Assembly: GCF_900095135.1 (NCBI RefSeq)
Contig: NZ_LT605205.1
Coordinates: 744,001 to 808,000 of the forward strand
Direction: 5' to 3'
Length of the DNA: 64,000 bases
From: Proteiniphilum saccharofermentans
Lineage (GTDB): Bacteria > Bacteroidota > Bacteroidia > Bacteroidales > Dysgonomonadaceae
Position 1 is the first letter of the stretch. Each line of letters starts with the position of its first letter. A program made the translations under genes and the position numbers. Below, piece by piece: positions 4,669-24,790 of this stretch. The notes under the pieces are model-generated. The model was not told the DNA's origin, searched no databases, and saw nothing but the letters and a program-made list of their open reading frames with translations.

Positions 4669-6141
4669 ATGTATAAACATACTAAAATTATTGCTACGAT
4701 TTCCGATAAGCGTTGTGACATACCCTTTTTGGAACAACTCTATGATGCAGGAATGAATGTTGTAAGGCTTAACTCGGCCCATCTCGATGAAGAAGGGTTC
4801 CTCAATATTATTAACAATGTACGGACAGTCTCCGACCAGATTGCTATATTGGTAGATACCAAAGGCCCGGAGATTCGTACTACCGTCCTGGAAGATCCTA
4901 TTGAATTGAAAATAGGAGACAAAATAAAAATTGTAGGGAATCCTGATAAGATATCGTCAAGGGAGACCTTATATATCACCTACCGGAATATCACCGATGA
5001 GATGCATATAGGAGATGATATCCTGATTGATGACGGAGAGGTAGATTTGGAAGTGATTGGGGTCACGAATGATTCTCTTCTTTGTTGTGCTAAGAATGAT
5101 GGTGTGATCGGAAGCCGTAAGAGTGTGAATATCCCCGGTGTACGTATCAATCTTCCTGCGATTACTGAACGGGATAAGAAATTCCTTGAATTAGCCGCCA
5201 AAAATGATGTGGATTTTGTGGCTCATTCATTTGTGAGAAGCAGGGAAGATGTTGAAGCCGTACAGGAGATCCTGGACGAGTTGGGAAGCCATATCAAAAT
5301 CATAGCCAAGATTGAAAACCAGGAAGGTGTGGATAATGCCGATGAAATACTGGAAGCAGCTTATGGTATCATGATTGCCCGGGGTGACCTGGGAATAGAG
5401 GTCGCACAGGAGAAAATTCCCGGTATACAACGTGTACTGATCAGAAAAGCCATCCATCATAAGAAACCGGTTATTGTAGCTACTCAGATGCTGCACTCCA
5501 TGATCAATAATCCCCGTCCTACACGGGCTGAGATCACTGATATTGCCAATGCGATCTATTATCGTACCGATGCCGTGATGTTGAGTGGTGAAACAGCTTA
5601 TGGTAAATATCCGGTAGAAGCGGTACGTACAATGGCAAAAACTGCTTATGAGGCCGAATTGACCAAACTGTCAGAAAATGATATCCGTGTACCTTATGAT
5701 CCGGCAGACAACCGTGAAGTGACGGAGTTTCTGGCCAAACAGGCAGTGAAGTCATGTGCACTTCTAAATGTGAAGGCAATCGTGACCGATAGCCACACAG
5801 GCAGAACTGCCCGGGTTTTGGCGGCATTTAGGGGAAAGAGTCCCGTTTACGCTATCACCACTACTAAAAGGTTGGCGCGTGAGTTGGCGTTATCATACGG
5901 TATTTGGGCAGAATTCCAACAGGGAAAAGGTGACGGTAATACCAAGGAAAGCCGCAGGGCTTATTTTACAGAAGCCATCCAGCAGTTGGTAAATAAAAAT
6001 ACAATTGAATCGCAGGATAGGGTAGCTTATCTGGGAGGAAGCTTTGGGGAGACCGGTGGGACTACCTATTTGGAGATTATAGATGCCTGGAGAATTCTCG
6101 AGGCAAAAGAGAAATATAATCTGCCCGATTATACGATGTAG
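4669..6141 (+). CDS. pyk: pyruvate kinase
   Basis: Last step of glycolysis: phosphoenolpyruvate plus ADP to pyruvate plus ATP. At 490 residues it is the usual bacterial length. The N-terminal strand (T-K-I-I-A-T-I-S) opens the TIM barrel. The catalytic Lys is at about 214 in I-A-K-I-E-N-Q-E-G, and the metal/phosphate-binding M-I-A-R-G-D-L-G-I-E follows near 236. A regulatory C-terminal domain starts near residue 350. The barrel is interrupted by the usual B domain (about 70-165). The gene is not tightly coupled to aroQ (137-base gap holding an array). A tandem set of small hairpins follows its stop. Confidence 0.96.
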   Translation: MYKHTKIIATISDKRCDIPFLEQLYDAGMNVVRLNSAHLDEEGFLNIINNVRTVSDQIAILVDTKGPEIRTTVLEDPIELKIGDKIKIVGNPDKISSRETLYITYRNITDEMHIGDDILIDDGEVDLEVIGVTNDSLLCCAKNDGVIGSRKSVNIPGVRINLPAITERDKKFLELAAKNDVDFVAHSFVRSREDVEAVQEILDELGSHIKIIAKIENQEGVDNADEILEAAYGIMIARGDLGIEVAQEKIPGIQRVLIRKAIHHKKPVIVATQMLHSMINNPRPTRAEITDIANAIYYRTDAVMLSGETAYGKYPVEAVRTMAKTAYEAELTKLSENDIRVPYDPADNREVTEFLAKQAVKSCALLNVKAIVTDSHTGRTARVLAAFRGKSPVYAITTTKRLARELALSYGIWAEFQQGKGDGNTKESRRAYFTEAIQQLVNKNTIESQDRVAYLGGSFGETGGTTYLEIIDAWRILEAKEKYNLPDYTM

Positions 6142-12183: not shown

Positions 12184-13149
12184 TTAATATCTTCTGTCTC
12201 TCATTGAAACGGAAGCAGCGCCGGACGAACTTATCGGAGGTCTTCTGTTGTTCCGGCGGTTTACTTTCTGCTGTGGAGGGACAATGGAATGATTTTCATG
12301 CTTCCAGAGACTCTTTTCGAAATCAACCAGTTCCTGTTCAATCCTCTCCTGTTCCGCCTTTATTTCTTCGGGAGTGGAGGTGTACTGCGAGATGGCAAGG
12401 TTCCGTGGATTCTGTGCTTTGTAGATCTCCCCGTCGTACTTTCTCATGCGAAAAAAATCATCAACGCTGCCGCTCATGTTGTTATTGAGTGAAGAACTCA
12501 TGACCGGTATCCGCCGTGCATAAGGAGCTATTTCGTCGTAAGGAATCCAGAAGAGGGGATAACGGGTGGTGGTACCATAATCGTCCCGGCGCTGCAAGAC
12601 AGGGCAGATGGCGAGCGGTCTTACCTTGAAAGAAGAGCTGCCTGTATCGAAATAGTAAGCTTCTTTCACGAAATAACTTTCTACCTCATTGCCGGGAATA
12701 TCGACGTCATTCACTACGATTTTCCCGTCGGCTGTTTCATAGTAAACACCGAACCGATCCAGCAATTCCTGGAAATCGACCCGGTACTCCTCTGTAAACT
12801 CTTCCCGTCCGTCCAGATATTCATAAGCCACAACAGCATCTTCCTGTAATAGATTGAATAGCATAGTAAACAGGCTCATCTTTCCATCTACAGGGGTGGG
12901 CGGGTAATAGAGCGGGGCATTGGCCTCTTTGGTAAGATCGAGATAGCGGTAGATGATACGCGACCATTTGGCATTTTCTATGTTTTCGTCGCTGTGGCGG
13001 TTTTGTTGTTCCATACGGATATTTGTACCGGCAGTCTGTACAGTACTTTGTCGACGCCGTTCTATTCTTTCCCTCGCCGTTTCCTGTGGGAAAAGGGCTG
13101 TAAAACTTCCTGTGAAAAGGATCAATATCAATAATACTTTTGTTTGCAT
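12184..13149 (-). CDS. gldN: type IX secretion/gliding protein GldN (PorN)
   Basis: Periplasmic partner of GldK; the two form the ring beneath the outer membrane in the type IX secretion system. The protein has 321 residues with a signal peptide (about 1-22, ending before Q-E-T-A). The GldN core runs from about residue 60 to 250 (R-I-I-Y-R-Y-L-D-L, the Y-Y-P-P-T-P segment, L-F-W-I-P-Y-D-E). A basic, low-complexity tail (Q-K-V-N-R-R-N-N-R-R) follows, as often in this family. It closes the KLMN order. The start is ATG at 13149, 90 bases after gldM, with an array between. A GATATTA/TAATATC palindrome covers its stop. Confidence 0.93.
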   Translation of the reverse strand: MQTKVLLILILFTGSFTALFPQETARERIERRRQSTVQTAGTNIRMEQQNRHSDENIENAKWSRIIYRYLDLTKEANAPLYYPPTPVDGKMSLFTMLFNLLQEDAVVAYEYLDGREEFTEEYRVDFQELLDRFGVYYETADGKIVVNDVDIPGNEVESYFVKEAYYFDTGSSSFKVRPLAICPVLQRRDDYGTTTRYPLFWIPYDEIAPYARRIPVMSSSLNNNMSGSVDDFFRMRKYDGEIYKAQNPRNLAISQYTSTPEEIKAEQERIEQELVDFEKSLWKHENHSIVPPQQKVNRRNNRRPPISSSGAASVSMRDRRY

Positions 13150-13239: not shown

Positions 13240-14790
13240 TCACTGTACCCTCACTTCCATCACTGCAATCTCCCGCTCAGTACCATCAGGGCCAACCGCA
13301 CGTACGCCCGAAATATAGAAATAACTGCCTCGTGCAAGACGTCTGATCTGCTCTTTCTGCCTATCAGAGAAACGGCTCCCATCAGAAACTTCGGGAATAG
13401 CATTTCCCATGGAATCGAAAAAGACAGTACGAAAACTGGTCACCCGGAACGGAATGGAAAGGATGCCATCGTCAATGGCTGCCTTGATCCCGCTGGCATT
13501 CATTAAAACCGCTTTCTGTAATCCTCCTCCCCTGAACATCACCGGATTTCCGTTCGCATCGCTGTATTCAATATATGGAGTGGGATCGGGGAGCGCGCGT
13601 ACCCTGAACTCTTTAATGGCCACACGACGAACATCTCCGTCCGTGGTACGGGCCGATACCGATATCGTGACATCCTGTCCTATGGACGAGGGACGGGCAA
13701 CCCACATATTTCCCCGACGGGTGAGGGTGCCGTTGGTGATAGTCGCACTGACATCCTGCGGAGCGATACCGGGTACGGAAATGCCGATCTCGTTATCGAT
13801 GCCGGCATACAATACATTCATCAGGGTAGGAGCAATGGTAGCGATCGGTTCAATCACAGTGTAGCTGCCTGCAAACGGGCGACGGGTCACGCTACCATCA
13901 CTGCCGGTCATTTCTAAATATCCTTCTACAGGGAATGTTCCGGTACGGTCAGCCCGGACGGAAAAGGATCCGTTTTCTTCTGTATCGAGAATCTCCCCGT
14001 TGACCATAATAAGAGGTTGTCGGGTAGAGTCTTCTGCCGAGAGTACAATACGGGCATTATAGGAACCACCTTGGATGACGATATCGGACTCGGGGATGAT
14101 ATAGGCATTCAGCCGGTTTACACGAAAATCTCCAATATCCACATTGTGCAGGATATTGGAGAGTGCTTCTCCTTCCGATGAACGGATATCATTCTCTATC
14201 TTGGTAAGCATGGTGATAGCTGCAGCCAGCGGCATTTGTTCAAAGAGAGAGGCTTCCCAGCTTTTATTGGCTGACCGTGGTTGTGTGCTGAGATTTTTTT
14301 CGATAATTGCCCGACGGGCGGGATCTGTTACGAGTTGCGTTACTGAGTCGCGGTAGGTATCGATTGTATTCCTGAATTTTCTTCCTTCACCATTTACGGG
14401 GGAGAGCATAACCACCGACGCGGCTTCCAGATCGTCTTTGTGTTTGATGTTACTGATATCCGCTTTTCTTCCGTCGGCTTCACGCACCATACGCAGTTTC
14501 AGTTCTCCAATATACCTTGTCAGCGAATCGCTCATGGCGCGTACCTGCACCCCTTTCCGGTACCACTCCCCGGCCTTTTCCGGGTTTTGTGCATGATAGG
14601 CCGTTAATTCATCCATGATCAGCCTATTGCGTTCCAGCATCGTACCGGATGAATTTCCCAGACTATTATCCACCATTTCGAATCCGTCGAGTACTTCGAC
14701 CGATACGTTCAACGCCAGCATTGCAATGAATACCAGATACATCAGGTTGATCATTTTCTGACGGGGGGAGTTGGGACTGTTGACTGCCAT
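13240..14790 (-). CDS. gldM: type IX secretion/gliding motor protein GldM (PorM)
   Basis: Inner-membrane motor component that reaches through the periplasm to the GldK-GldN ring. With GldL it turns proton flow into the motion that drives secretion and gliding. At 516 residues it is the family's usual length. A short cytosolic N-terminus (S-P-R-Q-K-M-I-N-L-M-Y-L) leads straight into one membrane helix (about 12-32, L-V-F-I-A-M-L-A-L-N-V-S). A helical domain follows to about 220, then three beta-rich domains of the periplasmic shaft. The stop is 90 bases before gldN, and the start is 8 bases after the gldL stop, so L and M are translationally close. Confidence 0.95.
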   Translation of the reverse strand: MAVNSPNSPRQKMINLMYLVFIAMLALNVSVEVLDGFEMVDNSLGNSSGTMLERNRLIMDELTAYHAQNPEKAGEWYRKGVQVRAMSDSLTRYIGELKLRMVREADGRKADISNIKHKDDLEAASVVMLSPVNGEGRKFRNTIDTYRDSVTQLVTDPARRAIIEKNLSTQPRSANKSWEASLFEQMPLAAAITMLTKIENDIRSSEGEALSNILHNVDIGDFRVNRLNAYIIPESDIVIQGGSYNARIVLSAEDSTRQPLIMVNGEILDTEENGSFSVRADRTGTFPVEGYLEMTGSDGSVTRRPFAGSYTVIEPIATIAPTLMNVLYAGIDNEIGISVPGIAPQDVSATITNGTLTRRGNMWVARPSSIGQDVTISVSARTTDGDVRRVAIKEFRVRALPDPTPYIEYSDANGNPVMFRGGGLQKAVLMNASGIKAAIDDGILSIPFRVTSFRTVFFDSMGNAIPEVSDGSRFSDRQKEQIRRLARGSYFYISGVRAVGPDGTEREIAVMEVRVQ

Positions 14791-14798
14791 GGATAGGA

Positions 14799-15554
14799 TT
14801 ATGTGATGGGGTTACCGGGATTGTTCTGTTTGTTGACTGTCATAGCATTCAGCATACGCGCATAGACTTCGTTCAGTTCTCTGAGCTGATCCGCCATTTT
14901 CTCTGTTTCTGCTTTAATAACTGATCCGTCGGGGAGGGTATCACCATACATAGTTCTGAGGCGGGCCAGCCCCTGATTGATCTGCTCGATAGCACCGATC
15001 TGGCTGCTGACGCTTTTGAGCTGTATCTCATAGATGGAGTTGAGTCCTGACAATGTACGATTAAGGTTTTCCATCTGTTTGCCGTATTCTTCGGAATGTG
15101 CCGAAAGATTATGAGGGACTTCATACCCCGGTTCGCCGGGCGAATTTGTTGGATGGATGTGGGGAGTTGTAGATACTTCGGAGTGTTGTGGAGTAAAATT
15201 GTGGGTAGCGGAAACGGAAATCGTTTCACGAGCAGATGGTGGTGTCTGTTGTGCTATAGCAGCGTTAAAACCGGGATCCTCTTCAGAGTTTACGGAAGAG
15301 AGTGCCGGGAATACCTGCTCCCACCTGTAATCGCGTATTGGTGAATCGAACGCCGAGAGGATAAAGACGATACATTCGGTGACCATCCCGATGAAGAGCA
15401 TCTCATTGCCGAAGGGAAAGTGGAGCAGTTTAAACATCGCACCGAGTATCACGATGGCAGCTCCGAAACTATAGGCGAAATTGATGAACCGTTTCCCCCG
15501 CTCGGTTTGTAGAAACCGTTCAAGCCGGTTTTTATATCTTTTGTAGGCGTTCAT
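14799..15554 (-). CDS. gldL: type IX secretion/gliding motor protein GldL (PorL)
   Basis: Inner-membrane stator-like partner of GldM. From the ATG at 15554 it has 251 residues. Two membrane helices lie at about 23-43 and 51-69, and the second holds Glu60 (M-V-T-E-C-I-V-F), the candidate for the conserved membrane glutamate of the proton path; Glu51 sits at its edge. The cytosolic part ends in a predicted coiled coil (about 165-245, L-N-R-T-L-S-G-L-N-S-I-Y). A TTG at 15569 would start inside the upstream array and is rejected. The middle region (about 80-160) is low-complexity, rich in Pro, Ser, Thr and His. Confidence 0.93.
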   Translation of the reverse strand: MNAYKRYKNRLERFLQTERGKRFINFAYSFGAAIVILGAMFKLLHFPFGNEMLFIGMVTECIVFILSAFDSPIRDYRWEQVFPALSSVNSEEDPGFNAAIAQQTPPSARETISVSATHNFTPQHSEVSTTPHIHPTNSPGEPGYEVPHNLSAHSEEYGKQMENLNRTLSGLNSIYEIQLKSVSSQIGAIEQINQGLARLRTMYGDTLPDGSVIKAETEKMADQLRELNEVYARMLNAMTVNKQNNPGNPIT

Positions 15555-15638
15555 TTTTTTAATTATCAATTACTAATTACTAATTACCGATGAATAGGAA
15601 TTGTACAAATCTTAAATATTGAATTTGAAATTTTGAAT
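15555..15638 (-). repeat. TAATTAG array between gldK and gldL
   Basis: In gldL sense: an AAATTCAAAATTTCAAATTC-like part near gldK's stop, then GGTAATTAGTAATTAGTAATTGATAATT, ending just before the gldL ATG. The TAATTAGTAATTAG unit is identical to that before the O-methyltransferase at 6.2 kb. Confidence 0.6.
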
Positions 15639-17057
15639 TTATTTCCCCGAGCTGACCTGTGTTCTTACGCATCGGAACCCAATATAAGAACGTCCCCGGT
15701 TCTGGTATTCATTATCGCGCATATCCGACCGGATAAAGGTAGAGATATCTTTCCATGAACCTCCTTTCACTACTTTTCGTTTCAGGACATAGGGATCTTC
15801 GGTAGTAGCATTATAACTGTATTCAGGGTTCAGGTCACCCATCAGTTCGTTCCCCGACTCGGTGTAAGCGGTAGAGGTCCATTCCGCCACATTCCCGGCC
15901 ATATCATACAATCCTGAGTTATTAGGCTTGAAACTTCTTACTTTAGCGGGGATAAGGTGGTTATCGGCACCATAGGCTCCGTCGCCCGGCTTGAAGTTGG
16001 CCTGGAAACAGCCGCTTTCACTTGTTGTGGCATCTGAATCCCATGGGTATTTATTGTCGGAGTTGGCATTCCGTGCTGCCATCTCCCATTCAGCTTCGGT
16101 GGGGAGACGGTATTTTTCTATTGTCACCCCTTGTTTGTTAATACTCCTGCGCAGAAAGAGGGTACGCCACTCACAGAAAGCAGTCGCCTGCTCCCATGAA
16201 ACTCCTACTACCGGGTGGTGTGCGTAGGCGGGATGGGAAAAATAGTTACGTAAATAGCGTTCATTATCCGCGTTCGGAAAATCGTTCACCCAGCAGGTGG
16301 TATCAGGGTATATATTGACGATACGTGTGTGTACGAAGTCGTAAAGGCTGCTCAGGGGACGGGTAATGGTTTCATTGACAATTCGTCCGTCGGAAGCAAT
16401 ATAAGCTGTATCTTTCGATATTATGATGATTTCATTCGGATCGATGATGATGTCACTGTTCAATGTCCTCTCTGCGGGATTCAGTCGGTGCTGTCGTCTG
16501 GCCGCTTCTGCCGCATCAAACCACTCGTAACGAAAATTCATCTGGCGGGCATCCAGCATTTTTTCTCCTGTGATGGGATGTGTGGTATAAACACTGTTGA
16601 TGGCAGCCTCTTCCTCTTCGGTATTTCTTGTCCAGGGGATGGGAATCCTCCAGTTCAACCGGGGGGTGACAGGATCACCGTATTCATCCTCAGTGATCTT
16701 GTAAAAGTCATCGCCGGCGTAGGCCGGGTCTGCCAGCCGTTCTCGGATGATGGAATCCCGTACCCAGTAAACAAACTGTTTGTATTGGGAGTTAGTGATC
16801 TCCGTCTCATCCATCCAGAAATTGTCTACCGATACGCCGCGGGTAGGTATCGAGAATCCCCAAAGCGAATCGATCTCTCCCGGCCCCATGATATAAGCTC
16901 CCCGTGACACCAATACCATATTGTATGGTGTGGGTTCCCCCCACACTTTACCTACAGGAACGCCGGTCAGTTCACCGCCGATACTGTTACCGATCCCCCG
17001 TCTGCCACAGGAAGCAATCATAATCAGTATCAGCACGAATAATATATATCTTTTCAT
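15639..17057 (-). CDS. gldK: type IX secretion/gliding lipoprotein GldK (PorK)
   Basis: Outer-membrane lipoprotein of the type IX secretion ring, with a formylglycine-generating-enzyme-like (SUMF1) fold but a structural role. From the ATG at 17057 it has 472 residues. The signal peptide ends in the lipobox I-A-S-C with Cys17. The FGE-like domain covers most of the rest: M-V-L-V-S-R-G-A-Y-I-M-G near 50, E-T-E-I-T-N-S-Q-Y near 85, P-V-V-G-V-S-W-E-Q-A, R-L-P-T-E-A-E-W-E, and the closing K-G-G-S-W-K and G-F-R-C-V-R-T. A TTG nine bases upstream is less likely as start. It heads the K-L-M-N order, 83 bases after the porP-like gene. Confidence 0.94.
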   Translation of the reverse strand: MKRYILFVLILIMIASCGRRGIGNSIGGELTGVPVGKVWGEPTPYNMVLVSRGAYIMGPGEIDSLWGFSIPTRGVSVDNFWMDETEITNSQYKQFVYWVRDSIIRERLADPAYAGDDFYKITEDEYGDPVTPRLNWRIPIPWTRNTEEEEAAINSVYTTHPITGEKMLDARQMNFRYEWFDAAEAARRQHRLNPAERTLNSDIIIDPNEIIIISKDTAYIASDGRIVNETITRPLSSLYDFVHTRIVNIYPDTTCWVNDFPNADNERYLRNYFSHPAYAHHPVVGVSWEQATAFCEWRTLFLRRSINKQGVTIEKYRLPTEAEWEMAARNANSDNKYPWDSDATTSESGCFQANFKPGDGAYGADNHLIPAKVRSFKPNNSGLYDMAGNVAEWTSTAYTESGNELMGDLNPEYSYNATTEDPYVLKRKVVKGGSWKDISTFIRSDMRDNEYQNRGRSYIGFRCVRTQVSSGK

Positions 17058-17140
17058 AATTTCCAATTAAAAATTAAAAGTGAATAATTAAAAATTAGCA
17101 TCAATCGTCTCATTTTTCACTATTCATTCTTCATTTTTCA
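17058..17140 (-). repeat. array between the porP-like gene and gldK
   Basis: In gldK sense: GTGAAAAATGAAGAATGAATAGTG, then TAATTTTTAATTATTCAC and TTTTAATTTTTAATTGGAAA, ending at the ATG. The GAAGAATGA unit is shared with the array before the SDR gene at 20.1 kb. Confidence 0.55.
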
Positions 17141-18115
17141 CTATAAAAGCCGGATGCTCTTATGCGGTTGCCGCTTCGGTTTGAAATGATCGAGTGGAAA
17201 ATTATACCGGAGGTAGAGCTCATGACTCCCCCTGCTATTTTGTCCGATTCCCATAGTATGCAATCCGTAGGCATATCCCAACTCTACTTCACGGATGGTA
17301 GTTCCGGCAAAAAGCAGATATCCGTCGTTCATCCTCCATGATGCACCACCTGATAATTTTTTATTGTATTCGAGGCGAAGCGTAGCCTGCACTTGTAGCG
17401 TGCTGAGGTCGGTCTGAACCCACAACATCGGTTGTATTTCTAACGTATGAAAGAGAGTAATATTGTATCCGGCCATCAAATTATAGGAAAGGGGGATAGC
17501 CGACAACGTAGAATCGCTTTGAAGATCAGCTCCGAGAGAGTCATTATGTGCATAAAACCGGGGTTGATTGAGATGTATTGCCGACAGACCTATGAAAACA
17601 GATTTCCCTGTCCAGGAGATACCGGCGCCCAGGTCGATCACCTGTTTGTCGGCCGGATCCACTTTCAGCGTCCCCCGGCCGTGTTGTAAGGAATCTTCAA
17701 AAATATATTTGCTTCCTGCATCGAAATTCAAGTCATACACTCCGGCTTGTAGCCCCATATTCAGAAAGCCTTTACCGAACTCTTTTTTGAAACTGTATTG
17801 TACTGCCAGTAATGAGTTGCGCAGTTGACCTACGGTTTCATTATTAATCACCAATCCGACGCCGTGGCGTCTGCCGAAAAATTCAAAGGGCATATCAGCA
17901 GTAAGGATAAGTTGTTGAGGTGCATTTTCTATGCCTCTCCATGCATAACGGTAAAAGGCAGTGGTGCTGATTGCCTCTGCATCACCTGCAAACGAGGAAT
18001 TGAGATAACTCTTTACAGCCCAGTATTGACCGGGCGGGTCATCCCATTGTGCCTGCAGATGTAATAGGCTGCATAGCAACAGGAGTATGGTTAATAATAA
18101 ACACCGTTTTTCCAT
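17141..18115 (-). CDS. PorP/SprF family type IX secretion outer-membrane protein
   Basis: An outer-membrane beta-barrel of the PorP/SprF family. Members attach type IX ring components or surface filaments to the outer membrane. From the ATG at 18115 the protein has 324 residues. The signal peptide ends near L-H-L-Q-A-Q, followed by the family's hallmark start (P-G-Q-Y-W-A-V-K-S-Y-L-N-S-S-F-A-G). Alternating beta strands run to the end. An upstream in-frame extension to 18220 overlaps the VOC gene stop and lacks a signal peptide, so it is rejected. It lies 53 bases after the VOC gene, with no recognisable promoter between, so it probably belongs to the upstream lipid-gene transcript. Confidence 0.9.
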   Translation of the reverse strand: MEKRCLLLTILLLLCSLLHLQAQWDDPPGQYWAVKSYLNSSFAGDAEAISTTAFYRYAWRGIENAPQQLILTADMPFEFFGRRHGVGLVINNETVGQLRNSLLAVQYSFKKEFGKGFLNMGLQAGVYDLNFDAGSKYIFEDSLQHGRGTLKVDPADKQVIDLGAGISWTGKSVFIGLSAIHLNQPRFYAHNDSLGADLQSDSTLSAIPLSYNLMAGYNITLFHTLEIQPMLWVQTDLSTLQVQATLRLEYNKKLSGGASWRMNDGYLLFAGTTIREVELGYAYGLHTMGIGQNSRGSHELYLRYNFPLDHFKPKRQPHKSIRLL

Positions 18116-18168
18116 TATGTGTATAACTGAAAAACGACGAAAAAATTGTGTCCAGGAGGAATTTCCTA

Positions 18169-19263
18169 CTATATTTTGGAGGATTTTACCCGCATAAGCC
18201 GGAGCATTCCGAGCATCCATTTCGGAAGCGGTTTTTCGGGATCCCTGTTTTTCAGGTTAAGGCTTAGTCCTAATTTTTTTGCGATTGGTATTTTGTGTGT
18301 TTCCACAAATTCGATCAACGTACCGTCCGGATCTTCAATATAGGCAAATTGTCCTGCGGCATCACCCATATCGAAGGAGTTGCCTTCCTTGATATTTTGT
18401 GTGGTGTCTACCGTAAAGGGATGCCCCAACTCCGCACACTTTTTGCGTAATGCATCCATATTCCGGATATCGAAACAAACCTGAATAAAGCCGGGATCAC
18501 CCCAGAAACGCCCTTCGTAAAGTTTTTTCGGGGTACGTTCCAGTACCTGCACCAGTTCGATATAGGAGGGGCCGAACAGTTCACTAAGGCTACCTTTTCT
18601 GGGTTGTGAGTGTGTCAGCAAACGACGACGAAATTTTTGTGTGCCTGAAGGCAATCCTTCGAAATCGGGAAAAACGCCTGTCTCGTCTGCGATAATCTTG
18701 TCGTAACCCAGAATATCACGATATACTGTCATCGCTTTATCGATATCTGTCACACCGATAGTTACGCCAACCGCACCGCCTGTCGACTGCCCTTCGTCTT
18801 TAAAAATGTAATCGTCCTGTACGATTTGAAACAGATTTTCATATGGGTCTTTCACATAAAAAGTCTGATTTCCGTCGATATTTTTGTTGAGTCCGCCGAG
18901 GATATGGGCTTTCGGATTTTTGGAAAATTCTTCGAACGTGTGGGCAACGTCCCTGCTTTTGACTTTGCATATCAAAACACCCAGGTCGCCCATATTCAAT
19001 GTGAAGTCAAGCGGTTTTGGCTTCCGTTCTGAGTATTGCCACACTTCAAAACCGCCGCCACCCTGCATATTAACAGCAATCAGAGCGTGGCGCCGTTGTG
19101 GTTTTCCACCCGTGTAGGGTAGCATCAGTTCGGCAACTTTATCGTCCTCAAGAATACGGATATCCATATTGAACAGGTCAATATAGTATTTCCATGCTTC
19201 ATACAGTTTTTCTACTCCGATACCTACCTGTTGGATCCCTGCAATGATATAGTTCTCTTTCAT
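18169..19263 (-). CDS. two-domain VOC (glyoxalase/dioxygenase superfamily) protein
   Basis: 364 residues with two vicinal-oxygen-chelate modules, about 8-130 and 138-325, arranged as in 4-hydroxyphenylpyruvate dioxygenase. Some strand glutamates are kept (F-E-V-W-Q, Y-I-E-L-V-Q, L-I-E-F-V-E). The histidines that normally complete the metal site appear to be replaced by Gln or Val (I-Q-Q-V-G-I-G-V, V-G-V-T-I-G-V, F-I-Q-V-C-F). Hydroxyphenylpyruvate dioxygenase activity is therefore doubtful; it may bind another metal, or none. A basic, hydrophobic C-terminal tail (M-L-G-M-L-R-L-M-R-V-K) could touch the membrane. It starts 4 bases after the SDR stop, so it is part of the putative sulfonolipid operon. 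Its role is unknown. Confidence 0.8.
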   Translation of the reverse strand: MKENYIIAGIQQVGIGVEKLYEAWKYYIDLFNMDIRILEDDKVAELMLPYTGGKPQRRHALIAVNMQGGGGFEVWQYSERKPKPLDFTLNMGDLGVLICKVKSRDVAHTFEEFSKNPKAHILGGLNKNIDGNQTFYVKDPYENLFQIVQDDYIFKDEGQSTGGAVGVTIGVTDIDKAMTVYRDILGYDKIIADETGVFPDFEGLPSGTQKFRRRLLTHSQPRKGSLSELFGPSYIELVQVLERTPKKLYEGRFWGDPGFIQVCFDIRNMDALRKKCAELGHPFTVDTTQNIKEGNSFDMGDAAGQFAYIEDPDGTLIEFVETHKIPIAKKLGLSLNLKNRDPEKPLPKWMLGMLRLMRVKSSKI

Positions 19264-19267
19264 ATAG

Positions 19268-20062
19268 TTATGTCGCTTTGATCTTTCTAACCATTTTTCT
19301 TGCCAGTCCGGGAAAAAAACGCTTGATATATACCATCAGTAACTCTTTACCTCCGACGAGCACCTCAGGTTTTTGTTTATCAATAGCCTTCACGATCTTC
19401 TTTGCTGCTTTCTCCGCAGAGATGCCGCTGTTCTGCCCGTCATCCATTTGTCCGTGTTTTCTGCCATCGGCTTCTAACGCATTGTAAGAGATGTTTGTCT
19501 TTACCCGTCCGGGACAGACCATCACTACCCGGATATTCTGGTCGTAGTACTCCGCGTGGAGGGTTTCGAAAAAACCATAAAGGGCAAATTTGGATGAAGC
19601 ATAGGCCGATCGCAGAGGAAAGCCGAATTTCCCGGAGATGCTGGTGGTGACAGCGATAGTTCCTCCGCCTTTTTTAATCATGTCAGGTAATAGCCGTCTA
19701 CTGATCTTTACCGGTGCGAAGAAGTTCACGGCCATGATCTTTTCATCTACCTTGCCGTCTGTTTCCAGTATTTTGGAGCGTTGACTGATACCGGCATTCA
19801 GAAAAGCAATGTCGATCTTCCCGAAAGCAGCAATGGCTTTGTCGGTCAGCTCGTCGATATGTGCCAGGTCGGTCAGGTCATATGGTAATATTACGCATTG
19901 TGCACCAAGCCGGATACACTCTGCCTGCACTTCCGCCAACCGGTCAGCCCGTGTAGCCGTAAGGATCAGGTCGACTCCTTCCCGTGCATAGAGATAAGCG
20001 CATGCTTCACCGATACCCGATGAAGCGCCCGTGATCCATATGGTTTTATTATCAATTACCAA
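19268..20062 (-). CDS. SDR reductase, candidate 3-ketocapnine/3-ketosphinganine reductase
   Basis: A 264-residue classical SDR with T-G-A-S-S-G-I-G (11-18), N-A-G (89-91), catalytic Ser141 and Tyr154-x-x-x-Lys158. A hydrophobic, basic C-terminus (I-K-R-F-F-P-G-L-A-R-K-M-V-R-K) suggests membrane contact, as in DHRS7B-like lipid reductases and 3-ketosphinganine reductases. From its place after an alpha-oxoamine synthase and a cysteate-synthase-like gene, I infer it reduces the 3-keto group of the new long-chain base (3-ketocapnine). The start must be the TTG at 20062: TAA precedes it directly in frame and no ATG precedes the Rossmann strand. This start and codons 2-5 lie in an intergenic array. 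Confidence 0.85.
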   Translation of the reverse strand: MVIDNKTIWITGASSGIGEACAYLYAREGVDLILTATRADRLAEVQAECIRLGAQCVILPYDLTDLAHIDELTDKAIAAFGKIDIAFLNAGISQRSKILETDGKVDEKIMAVNFFAPVKISRRLLPDMIKKGGGTIAVTTSISGKFGFPLRSAYASSKFALYGFFETLHAEYYDQNIRVVMVCPGRVKTNISYNALEADGRKHGQMDDGQNSGISAEKAAKKIVKAIDKQKPEVLVGGKELLMVYIKRFFPGLARKMVRKIKAT

Positions 20063-20113
20063 TTATTAATTACCAATTTCATTCTTCACTCTTCATTCTT
20101 CACTCTTCATTCT
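20048..20113 (-). repeat. tandem array between the cysteate synthase-like gene and the SDR
   Basis: In gene sense, a 14-base unit GAGTGAAGAATGAA occurs three times, followed by TTGGTAATTAATAATTGG and TAATTGATAAT. The upstream gene's TGA (20116-20114) falls in the first unit, and the downstream gene's TTG start in the last TAATTG unit. The array thus touches both coding sequences. Confidence 0.7.
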
Positions 20114-21445
20114 TCACTCCCTCATCACCTCATTCCAGAGTTGTGACCGGTAATCGCCAATGGAGTGGGGGGCACATTCATCCACATTATAGACATTATG
20201 GGAAGTGTAAATCATCTGCTCCAGGAAATAGGGAGCACGATTGGGGCCTTCTCCGATATTGAGCAGCACTGTCTCCCCGTTTTTGATCAAGTTCTTCCTG
20301 AGTGCCACGAAGAATCCGGCGATGGAAACGGCAGATGCCGGTCCGGGGATTACTTTCTGCTCATAGGCAGTCAGTTTACCCACAGGTACCAGTTTCTTTT
20401 CGTGCATTCGCAGGAAGCTGCCTCCTGACTCTTTTACCAATTTTGCTACGATGGGGTAGGTAGCAGGATTACCGGTCGCCAGGGTAGGTACCTCTGTCTG
20501 GGGATTGTCGATGATAGGATACTTCTTCTCGAAACCTTCGGGGAATCCGGCGGCTTCGGCATCTTCCCACGCCTGCACCATTGGGTCGCAGCCGTCTGTC
20601 TGTACCAGAAGGAAGCGGGGATTTTTCAATTCAGGATAGACATGTTTGATCTCGCGGATACCTTTGTCTATGGCAATGGGGCCTGTACCGCCGCTGACTG
20701 CCTGGATATATACGTCAGGGAACTTATCCATCTGGCGGAGCCATTCGAATACCATGGTCTTCTTTGCTTCCACACGGATAGGATCGATATTGCCGGTCGA
20801 TATTGGGATATTGTGCAATTTGGCATATCCTGCGGCGATCTCCTTTGCTTTGGCATAGTCGCCCATCACACGGAACACCTGCTGCCCGTAGGAGCTGATG
20901 GTCGCTTCCGATGTCTTGATGGCATCCTCCGGCATAAATACCGAGCAGTTTACCTTTGCCAGTGAAAGGTATTTTGCGTAAGCTGTAGCTGAATTACCGG
21001 TGGAAGCGATGCAATATTGGTCGATACCGATCTCGTTGAACAGGCTGGCCGCCAATGAAGCAGCAATATCCTTGAATGTACCGGTACCTCCGTTTAAATC
21101 ATTCCTATAGACATGTACATTGAGATCGAGCCCGTACTTCTTTTTTGCAAACTCTTCCAGGAATGTCCATCGTTCTACCGGAATGGCACCTTCTCCTTTT
21201 GATATGATATGTCTCCTGCGTAACAACGGAAGAAAAGGGAAATAGTGCCAGAAACTGTTAGGAGCACGGCGCCCGATAAGTCGGGATAACCGCTGATAAC
21301 GGCGGTTGTACCATACCTCGGAATGTTTACTTCCGCATTTCGGGCATTGTTGGTTCTGTTCGAACCATGTCCAGAAGTTGGGAGTAACGTGCCCGCATTG
21401 GGTACAGGCCAAATGGTACTTATGCTGAATTTTTATACGGAGCAT
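20114..21445 (-). CDS. threonine synthase-like PLP enzyme, probable cysteate synthase
   Basis: A fold-type II PLP enzyme of 443 residues. An N-terminal zinc ribbon (Cys14/17 and Cys34/37) precedes the catalytic domain, as in archaeal-type threonine synthases and cysteate synthases. The Schiff-base Lys is 125 in G-G-T-G-T-F-K-D, and the phosphate-binding loop is S-G-G-T-G-P near 240. Threonine synthases usually have P-T-x-A-F-K-D there, so the changed loop suggests another substrate. Cysteate synthase makes L-cysteate from O-phosphoserine and sulfite, and cysteate is the head group of capnine. The start is 9 bases after the alpha-oxoamine synthase stop, which supports one pathway. The alternative is a threonine synthase paralogue; no other threonine gene is nearby. 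Confidence 0.78.
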   Translation of the reverse strand: MLRIKIQHKYHLACTQCGHVTPNFWTWFEQNQQCPKCGSKHSEVWYNRRYQRLSRLIGRRAPNSFWHYFPFLPLLRRRHIISKGEGAIPVERWTFLEEFAKKKYGLDLNVHVYRNDLNGGTGTFKDIAASLAASLFNEIGIDQYCIASTGNSATAYAKYLSLAKVNCSVFMPEDAIKTSEATISSYGQQVFRVMGDYAKAKEIAAGYAKLHNIPISTGNIDPIRVEAKKTMVFEWLRQMDKFPDVYIQAVSGGTGPIAIDKGIREIKHVYPELKNPRFLLVQTDGCDPMVQAWEDAEAAGFPEGFEKKYPIIDNPQTEVPTLATGNPATYPIVAKLVKESGGSFLRMHEKKLVPVGKLTAYEQKVIPGPASAVSIAGFFVALRKNLIKNGETVLLNIGEGPNRAPYFLEQMIYTSHNVYNVDECAPHSIGDYRSQLWNEVMRE

Positions 21446-21454
21446 TCTCTTTTT

Positions 21455-22717
21455 TTATGTAGTGGACATCGATTTCATCTCGTCGGCCATATATTTTCCC
21501 GCTTCGAGATTTACCTTTATCTTCTTGAATACCTCAATGGTCTCATCCACATCCTTCTGCGTATGGGAAGCCGTGGGGATCAGTCTGAGCATTAATACTC
21601 CTTTGGGTACTACCGGATATACGACAATAGAGCAAAATACGTTGTAATTCTCACGCAGGTCGATCACAATATTGGTACCTTCGGGAACCGAGCCGCTGAA
21701 ATAGACGGGTGTCACCGGTGATTGCGTATTGCCAATATTGAATCCCTCTGCAATCAGCCCTTGTTGCAGCGACTTGGCGATTTTCCACAGGTTTTCTTTA
21801 TATTGGGGCTGTGTTTGTAATATCTCGAGGCGTTTCAATGCTCCGATCACCATGGGCATGGGAAGTGATTTGGCAAAAATCTGAGAGCGCATATTGTATT
21901 TCAATGAGTTGACGATAGCTTTTTCAGAAGCGACAAAAGCACCAATACCGGCCATCGATTTAGCGAAGGTGCCAAAATAGATATCTACTTCGTCCATCAA
22001 TCCGAAATGTTCGCTTGCACCCGCTCCGGTCTCACCCATGGTACCAAATCCGTGTGCATCATCTATCATGAGGCGGAAATTGTATTTCTCCCTGAGTTTG
22101 ACAATCCCGGGAAGATTTCCCAAATCGCCCGACATACCGAATACCCCTTCGGTAATCACCAGGATGCCACCGTCTGTCTCTTCTGCTTTTTTTGTTGCGA
22201 AACCAAGCATCTTGTCGCATCTCTCCATATCATTATGGGGATAGACAAAACTCTTTCCACCCTTGGCTTTATGCAGAAAAATACCGTCCATGATACAAGC
22301 ATGGGATTCGGAGTCGTAAACAATGACATCATTCCTTGAGACCAGTGAATCGATAATCGAAACCATTCCCTGATAGCCATAATTCAGTAGGTAGGCAGCC
22401 TCCTTTTTCTCAAAGGCAGCGAGTTTTTCCTCCAATTCTCTGTGATATTTCGTTTGGCCTGACATCATGCGCGCTCCCATGGGATATGCCATTCCCCAGT
22501 CGGCTGCTGCTTTCGCATCCGCTTCACGTACTTCGGGATGGTTGGCCAATCCCAGATAGTTGTTCAGACTCCAGGTGATCACCTCTTTACCGAGAAACCT
22601 CATTCTTGGGCCTATTTCACCTTCCAATTCGGGAAATATAAAATATCCTTCCGCTTTTTTGCGATACTGTTCAAGCGGGCCTTCGGCACTTTTCAGCCGG
22701 TCAAAAATATCTGTCAT
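21455..22717 (-). CDS. alpha-oxoamine synthase, probable cysteate fatty acyltransferase
   Basis: A PLP enzyme of the KBL/AONS/serine palmitoyltransferase family that joins an amino acid to an acyl thioester with loss of CO2. From the ATG at 22717 it has 420 residues, with the PLP-stacking His139 (S-E-S-H-A), Asp219/Asp220-Ala-His and Schiff-base Lys253 (G-T-F-A-K-S-M). Serine palmitoyltransferase, 8-amino-7-oxononanoate synthase and cysteate acyltransferase (CFAT/SulA) share these. The next gene looks like cysteate synthase, so I infer CFAT: acyl-ACP plus cysteate to 3-ketocapnine. By memory, it resembles flavobacterial family members more than Bacteroides serine palmitoyltransferase (M-G-A-R-M-M-S-G-Q-T loop). 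Biotin genes are absent here, against a BioF role. It heads the operon behind its own -7 box. Confidence 0.82.
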   Translation of the reverse strand: MTDIFDRLKSAEGPLEQYRKKAEGYFIFPELEGEIGPRMRFLGKEVITWSLNNYLGLANHPEVREADAKAAADWGMAYPMGARMMSGQTKYHRELEEKLAAFEKKEAAYLLNYGYQGMVSIIDSLVSRNDVIVYDSESHACIMDGIFLHKAKGGKSFVYPHNDMERCDKMLGFATKKAEETDGGILVITEGVFGMSGDLGNLPGIVKLREKYNFRLMIDDAHGFGTMGETGAGASEHFGLMDEVDIYFGTFAKSMAGIGAFVASEKAIVNSLKYNMRSQIFAKSLPMPMVIGALKRLEILQTQPQYKENLWKIAKSLQQGLIAEGFNIGNTQSPVTPVYFSGSVPEGTNIVIDLRENYNVFCSIVVYPVVPKGVLMLRLIPTASHTQKDVDETIEVFKKIKVNLEAGKYMADEMKSMSTT

Positions 22718-22750: not shown

Positions 22751-22758
22751 CAAAAATA
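22751..22758 (-). promoter_or_regulatory. -7 box upstream of the acyltransferase operon
   Basis: On the minus strand TATTTTTG matches TAnnTTTG exactly, 33 bases before the ATG at 22717. No clear -33 TTG is present at the right distance. It is the only consensus -7 box I found between 17 and 22.8 kb, so the lipid and Gld genes may share it. Confidence 0.45.
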
Positions 22759-22891: not shown

Positions 22892-23137
22892 TTATATTTT
22901 ACGGCTGTCTTTTACTTCTACAAAATCTGCATCTTCGATTTCGCTCGACTCGAATTTCTTTTTCTGATACTCAATGATTCGATCCTGCTGGTTTTCAGGT
23001 TGTTTGTCTTGTTGTGCCCGTTGCTGCCGGAAGTTTGAAGTCTGTCTGCCACGCTTTCCCATAAGAAAGGCGGCGACTGCTTTCAGCAAAAAATAGACAA
23101 CCATAAAACCCAGAAGAAATTTAATTAGGAATCCCAT
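22892..23137 (-). CDS. DUF4834 family small membrane protein
   Basis: 81 residues: one N-terminal membrane helix (about 3-26, L-I-K-F-L-L-G-F-M-V-V-Y-F-L-L), a basic junction (M-G-K-R-G-R-Q) and a Gln/Lys/Glu-rich cytosolic tail ending D-A-D-F-V-E-V-K-D. This is the layout of DUF4834 proteins, which are widespread in Bacteroidetes and uncharacterised. The gene is flanked by gaps of 266 and 174 bases. In the larger gap (23138-23404) I see only a near-consensus -7 box (TATCTTTA, minus strand) shortly upstream of this gene. Confidence 0.8.
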   Translation of the reverse strand: MGFLIKFLLGFMVVYFLLKAVAAFLMGKRGRQTSNFRQQRAQQDKQPENQQDRIIEYQKKKFESSEIEDADFVEVKDSRKI

Positions 23138-23404: not shown

Positions 23405-24103
23405 CTATTTTCTACTGTGCCCTATAACAGAGAGAAAGATGTAGGCACCGATTCCCCAGAAGATGCCGCTGATACCTTGTAATGCTATAAGCAGTAACAT
23501 TACTACAATCAGGAGTATCTGTTTCTCATTGCCTTTGAACGATATTTTTTTGATTTTCAGTGAGAACATCGGTATTTCGGAGACCATCAACACTGACATC
23601 ACGATAATCAATCCTGTAGTGAGATAGAAAAAGTTCTCATTCCCGGTTACGAATTGAGTCATTCCGTAACTGTAGCTGATCCAAAATAGTCCGTTGGCGG
23701 GAGTAGGCAGGCCTATAAATGAACTGGTTTGTCGTTCGTCAATATTGAATTTAGCCAGCCGGTAGGCAGAAAAAACGGGTATGAGAAATGCCAGGTATGG
23801 GATCCAGACGTGTAGAGGTTCCAGATAACCTGGTAGTAAGAAGTAATCCCTGAGTAGTATAAAAACTGCCGCTGCAGGAGCCACACCGAAGCTGATCACG
23901 TCTGCCAGGGAGTCCAGTTCTTTTCCCAGAGGAGAATAAGCCTTTAACAATCGTGCCGCCATCCCATCCAAAAAATCGAACAGGGCGGCAACTGCCACCC
24001 ATATCACCACCGCCTTGAAGTTGGCCTGAAAAGCCATGACAACGGCTATGCATCCCGAGAAGAGATTTGACAGAGTGAGTATATTGGGTATTTGTTTCCG
24101 CAT
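23405..24103 (-). CDS. pssA: CDP-diacylglycerol--serine O-phosphatidyltransferase
   Basis: Integral-membrane enzyme that joins serine to CDP-diacylglycerol to give phosphatidylserine. The 232-residue protein carries the complete CDP-alcohol phosphotransferase motif: Asp43, Asp46-Gly47, Ala50-Arg51, Gly60, Asp64 and Asp68. About six to seven membrane segments follow the opening I-P-N-I-L-T-L-S-N-L-F-S-G. It starts 6 bases after the stop of the psd-like gene, so the two steps to phosphatidylethanolamine are co-expressed. The product also shares its serine supply with the serA-serC pair in this window. Confidence 0.94.
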   Translation of the reverse strand: MRKQIPNILTLSNLFSGCIAVVMAFQANFKAVVIWVAVAALFDFLDGMAARLLKAYSPLGKELDSLADVISFGVAPAAAVFILLRDYFLLPGYLEPLHVWIPYLAFLIPVFSAYRLAKFNIDERQTSSFIGLPTPANGLFWISYSYGMTQFVTGNENFFYLTTGLIIVMSVLMVSEIPMFSLKIKKISFKGNEKQILLIVVMLLLIALQGISGIFWGIGAYIFLSVIGHSRK

Positions 24104-24109
24104 AGTCCG

Positions 24110-24790
24110 TTATCTTTCTTTTTGGGATAGCCTTGCCAAAAAGGTGACATTGGCATGTACTTCTTCTCCCAGTTCGACCAATATTTCACTGTCGGGTGGC
24201 AGGAAAATATCCATACGTGAGCCTAGTTTGATGAATCCGAGTGGAGATCCTATATGTACTTCGTCTCCTTCTTTCACATAGGTGACGACTCTTCGTGCCA
24301 CTGCCCCGGCGATCTGTTTGGTAAGTATAGTCCCATGATCGGGTGTTTCAATCAAAATATTTGTATGTTCATTTTCATGACTCGATTTAGGCAGGTAAGC
24401 CGCATGAAAGTTCCCTTCCACATGGGAAAAATGGGTGATCTTGCCGGTAACCGGTATCCAGTTTGAGTGAGCATTAAAGAATGACATAAAGATGGATATC
24501 TGGATACGTTCATCATGAAAGAACTCTTTTTCGAATACTTTCTCAATGACCACGACCTTTCCGTCAGTAGGTGCATTTACCAATCCATGCAGATCGCCTT
24601 TATAGGTGCGATTGGGATGCCGGTAAAAGTTGAGAGCCATGGCATATAGCAGTATTGACAAAGATACCTGGATGGACGTAAATATTTTACCGGATGGTAA
24701 TATGAAAAAAATCACATTGAATATTATCAGCACTATGCCGATCTTTATCACTGCAGATTTACCTTCTTTATGTATTCGTAATAGTTTCAT
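24110..24790 (-). CDS. psd: phosphatidylserine decarboxylase family protein
   Basis: Converts phosphatidylserine to phosphatidylethanolamine using a pyruvoyl group formed by self-cleavage. At 226 residues it is the short (archaeal-type, Psd-B-like) form. Two N-terminal hydrophobic segments lie within 15-52. The conserved F-F-N-A-H-S-N-W-I-P and G-K-I-T-H-F-S-H-V-E-G segments are at 104-125. The cleavage site L-G-S-R-M-D places Gly190-Ser191 at the alpha/beta junction. It overlaps nothing, with 6 bases to pssA downstream. The start is the ATG at 24790, after an array. Confidence 0.92.
   Translation of the reverse strand: MKLLRIHKEGKSAVIKIGIVLIIFNVIFFILPSGKIFTSIQVSLSILLYAMALNFYRHPNRTYKGDLHGLVNAPTDGKVVVIEKVFEKEFFHDERIQISIFMSFFNAHSNWIPVTGKITHFSHVEGNFHAAYLPKSSHENEHTNILIETPDHGTILTKQIAGAVARRVVTYVKEGDEVHIGSPLGFIKLGSRMDIFLPPDSEILVELGEEVHANVTFLARLSQKER

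Follow-up and report, generated by a model that had tools for sequence, protein, structure and literature searches.

The window analyzed here is a 64,000-nucleotide stretch of DNA that corresponds to positions 744001 to 808000 of the single-contig, 4,414,963-base genome (labelled G000:C1) of Proteiniphilum saccharofermentans, very probably strain M3/6, whose origin is given in PMC5684752 as a biogas fermenter. On its minus strand lie four genes of putative sulfonolipid synthesis, followed by the PorP/SprF and GldKLMN genes of a type IX secretion system (T9SS). Checking of the open reading frames upheld the first-pass annotation of this DNA in that the four lipid genes are real and are separated by gaps of 9, 51, and 4 bases, with PorP/SprF following after 53 bases. 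All five proteins of the T9SS core scored above the curated NCBIfam cut-offs. The features, in window coordinates, are as follows.

22751..22758, minus strand: Bacteroidetes-type -7 box TATTTTTG, a pattern match 33 bases upstream of the ATG of gene 1 at 22717
21455..22717, minus strand: gene 1, predicted cysteate fatty acyltransferase (CFAT) of the CFAT/SulA/CapB type, 420 amino acids, from PDB matches, the Lys281 equivalent, and a tree
20114..21445, minus strand: gene 2, threonine-synthase-like pyridoxal phosphate (PLP) enzyme, 443 amino acids, probable alternative cysteate synthase, below the ThrC and TIGR03844 cut-offs
19268..20062, minus strand: gene 3, short-chain dehydrogenase (SDR), 264 amino acids, TTG start, probable 3-ketocapnine reductase, from PRK06181 and motifs
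18169..19263, minus strand: gene 4, tandem-domain VOC protein, 364 amino acids, PF00903
17141..18115, minus strand: PorP/SprF, T9SS membrane protein, TIGR03519, 173.4 bits against a cut-off of 90.55
15639..17066, minus strand: GldK/PorK, TIGR03525, 527.2 bits against a cut-off of 350
14799..15569, minus strand: GldL/PorL, TIGR03513, 197.8 bits against a cut-off of 68.3
13240..14790, minus strand: GldM/PorM, TIGR03517, 552.5 bits against a cut-off of 180
12184..13149, minus strand: GldN/PorN, TIGR03523, 209.3 bits against a cut-off of 85.9

We consider it likely that the lipid genes form a capnine operon with an accessory VOC protein, and that this operon is linked to the T9SS genes by position but not obligately. 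That the operon would make capnine is a prediction that we put forward with confidence from the sequences of its genes, beginning with gene 1. The best matches of gene 1 in the PDB were SulA (7u7h; 583 bits) and CFAT (28eh; 562 bits), compared to 246 bits for serine palmitoyltransferase (SPT), and its identity to SulA was 62.7% across the aligned part. Lys281 is described in PMC9304779 as the residue that separates SulA from SPT. Its equivalent in gene 1 is K283. Lysine was also present here in each of the 139 cluster members examined, which came from the loci that were fetched, and SPT has alanine; the other active-site residues of SulA (N53, H140, K251, and R376) correspond to N52, H139, K253, and R378 in gene 1. 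Against the SPT family NF047600, gene 1 scored 303.2 bits, under the cut-off of 640. In a tree of 35 sequences, comprising every fifth homologue, the CFAT set was separated from SPT, from Kbl, and from a third alpha-oxoamine synthase paralogue of the same genome with a bipartition support of 100. BioF, Kbl, and SPT were each ruled out as the identity of gene 1 by the family scores, the residues, and the tree. Judged from its sequence, gene 1 is thus a cysteate fatty acyltransferase of the SulA type that does not cluster with SPT, as had been proposed in the first-pass annotation.

The product of the operon might be supposed to be an ordinary serine-derived sphingolipid rather than a sulfonolipid, since CFAT and SPT belong to the same protein superfamily and a true SPT is also encoded in this genome. 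This is extremely improbable in view of the SulA lysine, the 100% tree split, and the fact that SPT is already encoded separately in the genome. The true SPT lies at G000:C1:3960485-3961663 (L002), where it scored 646.1 bits in one comparison and 660 in another, against the cut-off of 640, and has Ala at the Lys281 site. Across 198 genomes of the order Bacteroidales, CFAT (threshold, E 1e-110) was found in 140 and SPT in 63, of which 56 were above the family cut-off and 7 under it. Both enzymes occurred in 29 of the 198 genomes (23 when only SPT above the cut-off was counted; odds ratio, 0.18). Mutual exclusivity of CFAT and SPT is raised as a possibility in PMC10191378; because 29 genomes hold both, it is a tendency and not a rule.

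Gene 2 has four N-terminal cysteines of the zinc-ribbon type. It scored 90.1 bits against the threonine synthase family TIGR00260, compared to a cut-off of 167.1, and a separate ThrC that scored 311.5 bits against the same cut-off is encoded at G000:C1:114741. The sub-cut-off score and the distinct genomic ThrC rule out that gene 2 is ThrC, which agrees with the earlier view that this PLP enzyme is not a true threonine synthase. The profile of the archaeal-type cysteate synthase, TIGR03844, was matched almost full-length, at 102.5 bits against a cut-off of 324.9. In the 198 order genomes, TIGR03844 was present above its cut-off in 50 and the gene 2 type in 40, and no genome had both. When only the 140 CFAT genomes were counted, the corresponding numbers were 46 and 33, with an overlap of 0 compared to 10.8 expected (P = 2e-7 assuming independent genomes, which genomes are not). 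Since the two types never co-occur in CFAT genomes, gene 2 is probably an alternative cysteate synthase. Such a replacement has precedent, because in Alistipes and Odoribacter an archaeal-type enzyme is described as substituting for CapA (PMC10191378). Neither type was present in 61 of the 140 CFAT genomes, which may use CapA.

Gene 3 scored 229.5 bits against PRK06181 (cut-off, 215) and contains the SDR motifs TGxxxGIG and YxxxK in the forms TGASSGIG and YASSK. Its position makes it plausible that gene 3 encodes the 3-ketocapnine reductase.

The VOC gene is the least explained part of the operon and was given no role in the first-pass annotation. Gene 4 reached the gathering score of PF00903 and has a tandem VOC fold, and comparison of the VOC sequence profile with the PDB gave weak matches only (best E, 2e-4). 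At a presence threshold of E 1e-40, the VOC gene tracked CFAT in the order (CFAT in 56 of 63 VOC genomes; p = 9e-5) and avoided SPT (9 of 63; odds ratio, 0.25). The negative association with SPT ruled out the VOC gene as a sphingolipid gene. Loci were fetched from 20 of the 62 other VOC genomes, and one scan retained its top 80 from at least 569 loci. In 80 loci with 77 VOC open reading frames, an SDR gene lay directly upstream of the VOC gene in 45 of 77. In an alignment (A2) of gene 4 with 60 of 71 length-filtered sequences, Q12, E73, and E318 were invariant (61/61), and position 261 held H in 32 sequences and Q in the other 29. By alignment, in all 61 the usual first VOC histidine was replaced by Q12 in domain 1 and by G166 in domain 2. 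VOC dioxygenases of the PcpA/HPPD type have a two-His, one-Glu iron site. In the alignment, the conserved residues of the VOC protein seem closer to the metal site of glyoxalase I or methylmalonyl-CoA epimerase (MMCE) than to the dioxygenase site.

A PF01553 acyltransferase family was present in 60 of the 63 VOC genomes (odds ratio, 97) and matched no NCBIfam family at E 1e-20. The statistical association that places a VOC and acyltransferase module around the capnine operon is well supported. The genome studied here has its own homologue of this acyltransferase, with 34% identity, at G000:C1:104688-105902, away from the operon. Near the VOC gene, 22 of the 77 loci encode a set of proteins (iron-sulfur, CCG-domain, and FAD) similar to a heterodisulfide reductase complex, and CFAT was also near in L199, L202, L203, L208, L213, L249, L253, L255, and L264; this set might be a putative supply of sulfite or electrons.

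It is also conceivable that the threonine-synthase-like enzyme, the VOC protein, or both catalyze some other amino-acid or detoxification reaction and are mere residents of the operon. Both fall under every functional family cut-off shown, the VOC proteins are diverse, and 10 CFAT genomes have the threonine-synthase-like enzyme without the VOC gene. We nevertheless regard this as unlikely, given that the gene 2 type and TIGR03844 show zero overlap and that the four lipid genes are absent together in three relatives and occur together in other families (L059, L068, L130, L202, L203, and L208). A further proposal is that the SDR-VOC pair and the PF01553 acyltransferase constitute an unrecognised sulfonolipid branch, in which the VOC protein would be a new isomerase or epimerase acting on 3-ketocapnine, the acyltransferase would acylate capnine, and gene 2 would be a separately recruited cysteate synthase; we hold it only tentatively.

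From the observed gene identities, residues, gene order, distribution, and losses, we infer the following reactions for the capnine operon with its accessory VOC protein. Transcription of the operon, which runs from 22717 to 18169, would perhaps begin from the -7 box (22751-22758). By comparison with cysteate synthases described in the literature, gene 2 would combine phosphoserine and sulfite into cysteate, and CFAT would convert cysteate and an acyl thioester to 3-ketocapnine, the ketone of which would be reduced by the SDR to give capnine. The VOC protein would be an accessory enzyme of this pathway. Because its residues resemble the metal site of glyoxalase I or MMCE, our best guess, made with low confidence, is that it would act as an isomerase or epimerase at the carbon adjoining the 3-ketocapnine ketone. 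The PF01553 acyltransferase is a candidate for the acylation step. PorP-GldKLMN is the ordinary T9SS operon, and the two blocks would stand together in the family through one old arrangement; in this strain they may be transcribed together, and each can persist in a genome that lacks the other.

Linkage of the two blocks was followed in 101 genomes of the family Dysgonomonadaceae, 44 of which have CFAT. CFAT and GldM lay on one contig in 24 of the 44, where they invariably shared a strand and were no more than 14 kb apart; in 11 others GldM was on a different contig, and 9 had no GldM match. Of 43 family loci, 20 were fetched, and gene order was determined in them by tblastn. The order CFAT, gene 2 homologue (CYS), SDR, VOC, PorP, GldK, GldL, GldM, GldN was found in 13 of these (L153, L155-L157, L159, L161-L167, and L172). 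L170 was without PorP only, L154, L158, and L169 ended early, L168 contained only CFAT and CYS, and L160 had different genes after VOC as far as the contig end. Outside the family, no PorP or Gld gene was found near CFAT in any of 100 order loci (from 100 of the 139 other CFAT genomes) at tblastn E 1e-5 with the proteins of the window as queries, within at most 9 kb on each side, where some loci are cut by contig ends and tblastn may miss divergent PorP/Gld genes. In the same 100 loci, CYS was near CFAT in 11 and VOC in 6, and CYS, SDR, and VOC occurred together, each with at least 40% identity, in 3. On these 100 loci, linkage of the lipid genes to T9SS as an order-wide feature was rejected. 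Other frequent neighbours of CFAT in the order (YfiO-like, DFP, DUF4835, Rpb6-like, and SMC/RecN-like) had a housekeeping look and gave no lead.

In genome G244, gene order is kept from window position 4669 to about 32172, apart from insertions, and because so wide a region is retained, the conserved linkage of lipid and T9SS genes is no more than the background level of synteny. GldM was present in 182 of the 198 order genomes at E 0.001 (178 above the cut-off). CFAT and GldM occurred together in 133 genomes, CFAT only in 7, GldM only in 49, and neither in 9; on these counts an obligate coupling of CFAT to T9SS was rejected.

Relatives that carry one block only were compared with the window by means of its upstream flank and the segment that holds the lipid genes.

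24110..24790, minus strand: phosphatidylserine decarboxylase (PSD), upstream flank, PRK05305.1-2, 240.2 bits against a cut-off of 225
23405..24103, minus strand: phosphatidylserine synthase (PSS) PssA, upstream flank, TIGR00473, 116 bits against a cut-off of 107
22892..23137, minus strand: small conserved open reading frame of 81 amino acids between PssA and the lipid operon, with similar frames in L273, L276, and L277
18152..22907, minus strand: segment with the four lipid genes, in place of which G248 has about 181 other bases between PSS and T9SS flanks that are still present (blastn junctions against L273)

The PSS and PSD flank (23405-24790) is part of the same block conserved across the family. 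G248, which belongs to the same genus and is complete, retains the flanks, the 81-amino-acid frame, and the T9SS genes but has none of the four lipid genes. All four are absent from G236 and G242 as well, with other genes in the gap. At L273, L276, and L277 the cassette is missing and T9SS is retained. The 81-amino-acid frame is retained in relatives without the lipid genes. In a four-gene tree, G248 branched basally within the genus (56% support), and the neighbour of G236 was a cassette carrier (83%). Loss of the cassette would be simpler than repeated gain, because both clades carry it at the same site. The opposite arrangement was found in G295 (L171), where the cassette is kept, PorP-GldKLMN is absent at the site, and the genes that elsewhere follow GldN come directly after; GldM was not found in this genome, which is 89% complete. 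About 30 bases before PorP (18116-18150, minus strand) are conserved in G248 despite the missing VOC gene and are possibly an untranslated porP element. The one-block relatives offer a natural test of whether T9SS needs sulfonolipids: gene content shows that T9SS genes persist without lipid genes and says nothing on how well the T9SS works.

The first-pass annotation had held that the lipid pathway is genetically linked to the machine that needs it. The linkage itself held in all 24 family genomes with both genes on one contig; it did not extend to the 100 order loci and is broken both ways, and since there are relatives with only one of the two blocks, closeness is no proof of need. Obligate coupling of the lipid genes to T9SS is not supported by gene content. 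On the reading of the first-pass annotation, the lipid operon and PorP-GldKLMN would be one functional supra-operon, with sulfonolipids made in step with the machine needing them. The two blocks share a strand across a 53-base gap with no intergenic -7 box, gliding is stated in the review PMC10191378 to require sulfonolipids, the title of a paper links Flavobacterium johnsoniae CFAT with efficient gliding, and both the family linkage and a weak positive association between CFAT and GldM in the order point the same way. Weighed against the empty order loci, the general synteny seen in G244, the three relatives with T9SS and no cassette and the one with the cassette and no T9SS block, the 49 and 7 unpaired order genomes, and an opposite-strand gene that parts VOC from PorP in 3 of the 20 fetched family loci (L157, L159, and L164), a supra-operon appears quite unlikely.

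The Bacteroidetes -7 box consensus is TAnnTTTG. The window contains 68 matches compared to 48 expected by chance, so that a single match is weak evidence. The first-pass annotation had stated that no -7 box lies between the first gene and GldN; this was borne out for the minus-strand intergenic gaps and failed within the PorP coding sequence, which contains one match (17698-17705). A further match lies within the start of the CFAT gene (22702-22709). The absence of an intergenic box is permissive at most for a single lipid-secretion transcript from 22.7 to 12.2 kb. Scans for sigma-70-type sites (17 compared to 20.4 in shuffles) and terminator-like sites (18 compared to 11.5) were not used.

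Several observations weigh against a capnine operon with an accessory VOC protein that is linked to T9SS by position but not obligately. The gene 2 family profile (A3) scored only 80 bits with the solved cysteate synthase 9k3c and up to 124 bits with solved threonine synthases. Published 3-ketocapnine reductases are described in PMC11211663 as diverse SDRs, scattered in their genomes and unclustered with cfat, and the position of gene 3 is for this reason suggestive only. No VOC gene was found at E 1e-40 in 84 of the 140 CFAT genomes, so the VOC protein is not essential for capnine. Conversely, CFAT went unmatched at E 1e-110 in 7 VOC genomes: in G154 it is split over two contigs, and in the remaining six only other alpha-oxoamine synthase paralogues or nothing matched. 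The comparison of the VOC protein with MMCE is weak, the first segment scoring 19.8 bits and the segment that pairs the Glu with E318 scoring 1.1 bits, which is not significant alone. Co-distribution counts were adjusted for kinship in one thinned subset only. Finally, a weak positive association links CFAT and GldM among the order genomes (odds ratio, 3.5; p = 0.02).

Published work connects sulfonolipids with gliding, immunity, and development, and their synthesis is poorly defined beyond its first step. Co-distribution yields two candidates for this pathway, the VOC protein and the acyltransferase, in addition to a candidate alternative cysteate synthase. Among the papers listed in searches of the open-access PMC literature, none dealt with a linkage of sulfonolipids to T9SS or with the VOC gene. 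The closest known counterparts of gene 1 are SulA of Alistipes finegoldii (alfi_1224; PMC9304779) and CapB/CFAT, which it resembles in the 62.7% identity, the PLP lysine, the active-site residues, and Lys281; it differs in lying in an operon with a threonine-synthase-like enzyme, an SDR, and a VOC protein. The CapA-CapB-CapC capnine pathway of Liu et al. 2022, as described in PMC10191378, PMC11211663, and PMC12927429, comprises the same three steps that are predicted here and is without the extra VOC gene. As described in PMC11211663, the kcr genes of A. finegoldii and Chryseobacterium gleum are unclustered with cfat and Cys, and in Labilibaculum the cap homologues are widely separated according to Table 2 of PMC12927429. 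The TIGR03844 cysteate synthase is, like gene 2, a PLP enzyme of the threonine synthase group, from which gene 2 differs by its score of 102.5 bits (cut-off, 324.9) and by the lack of co-occurrence in 198 genomes. Gene 4 shares only 10 to 15% identity with the tandem VOC protein PcpA (4huz), maize glyoxalase I (6bnz), and GLOD4 (3zi1). The T9SS operon porP/sprF-gldKLMN has the same genes in the same order as are found here, the difference being that in this family the lipid operon precedes it.

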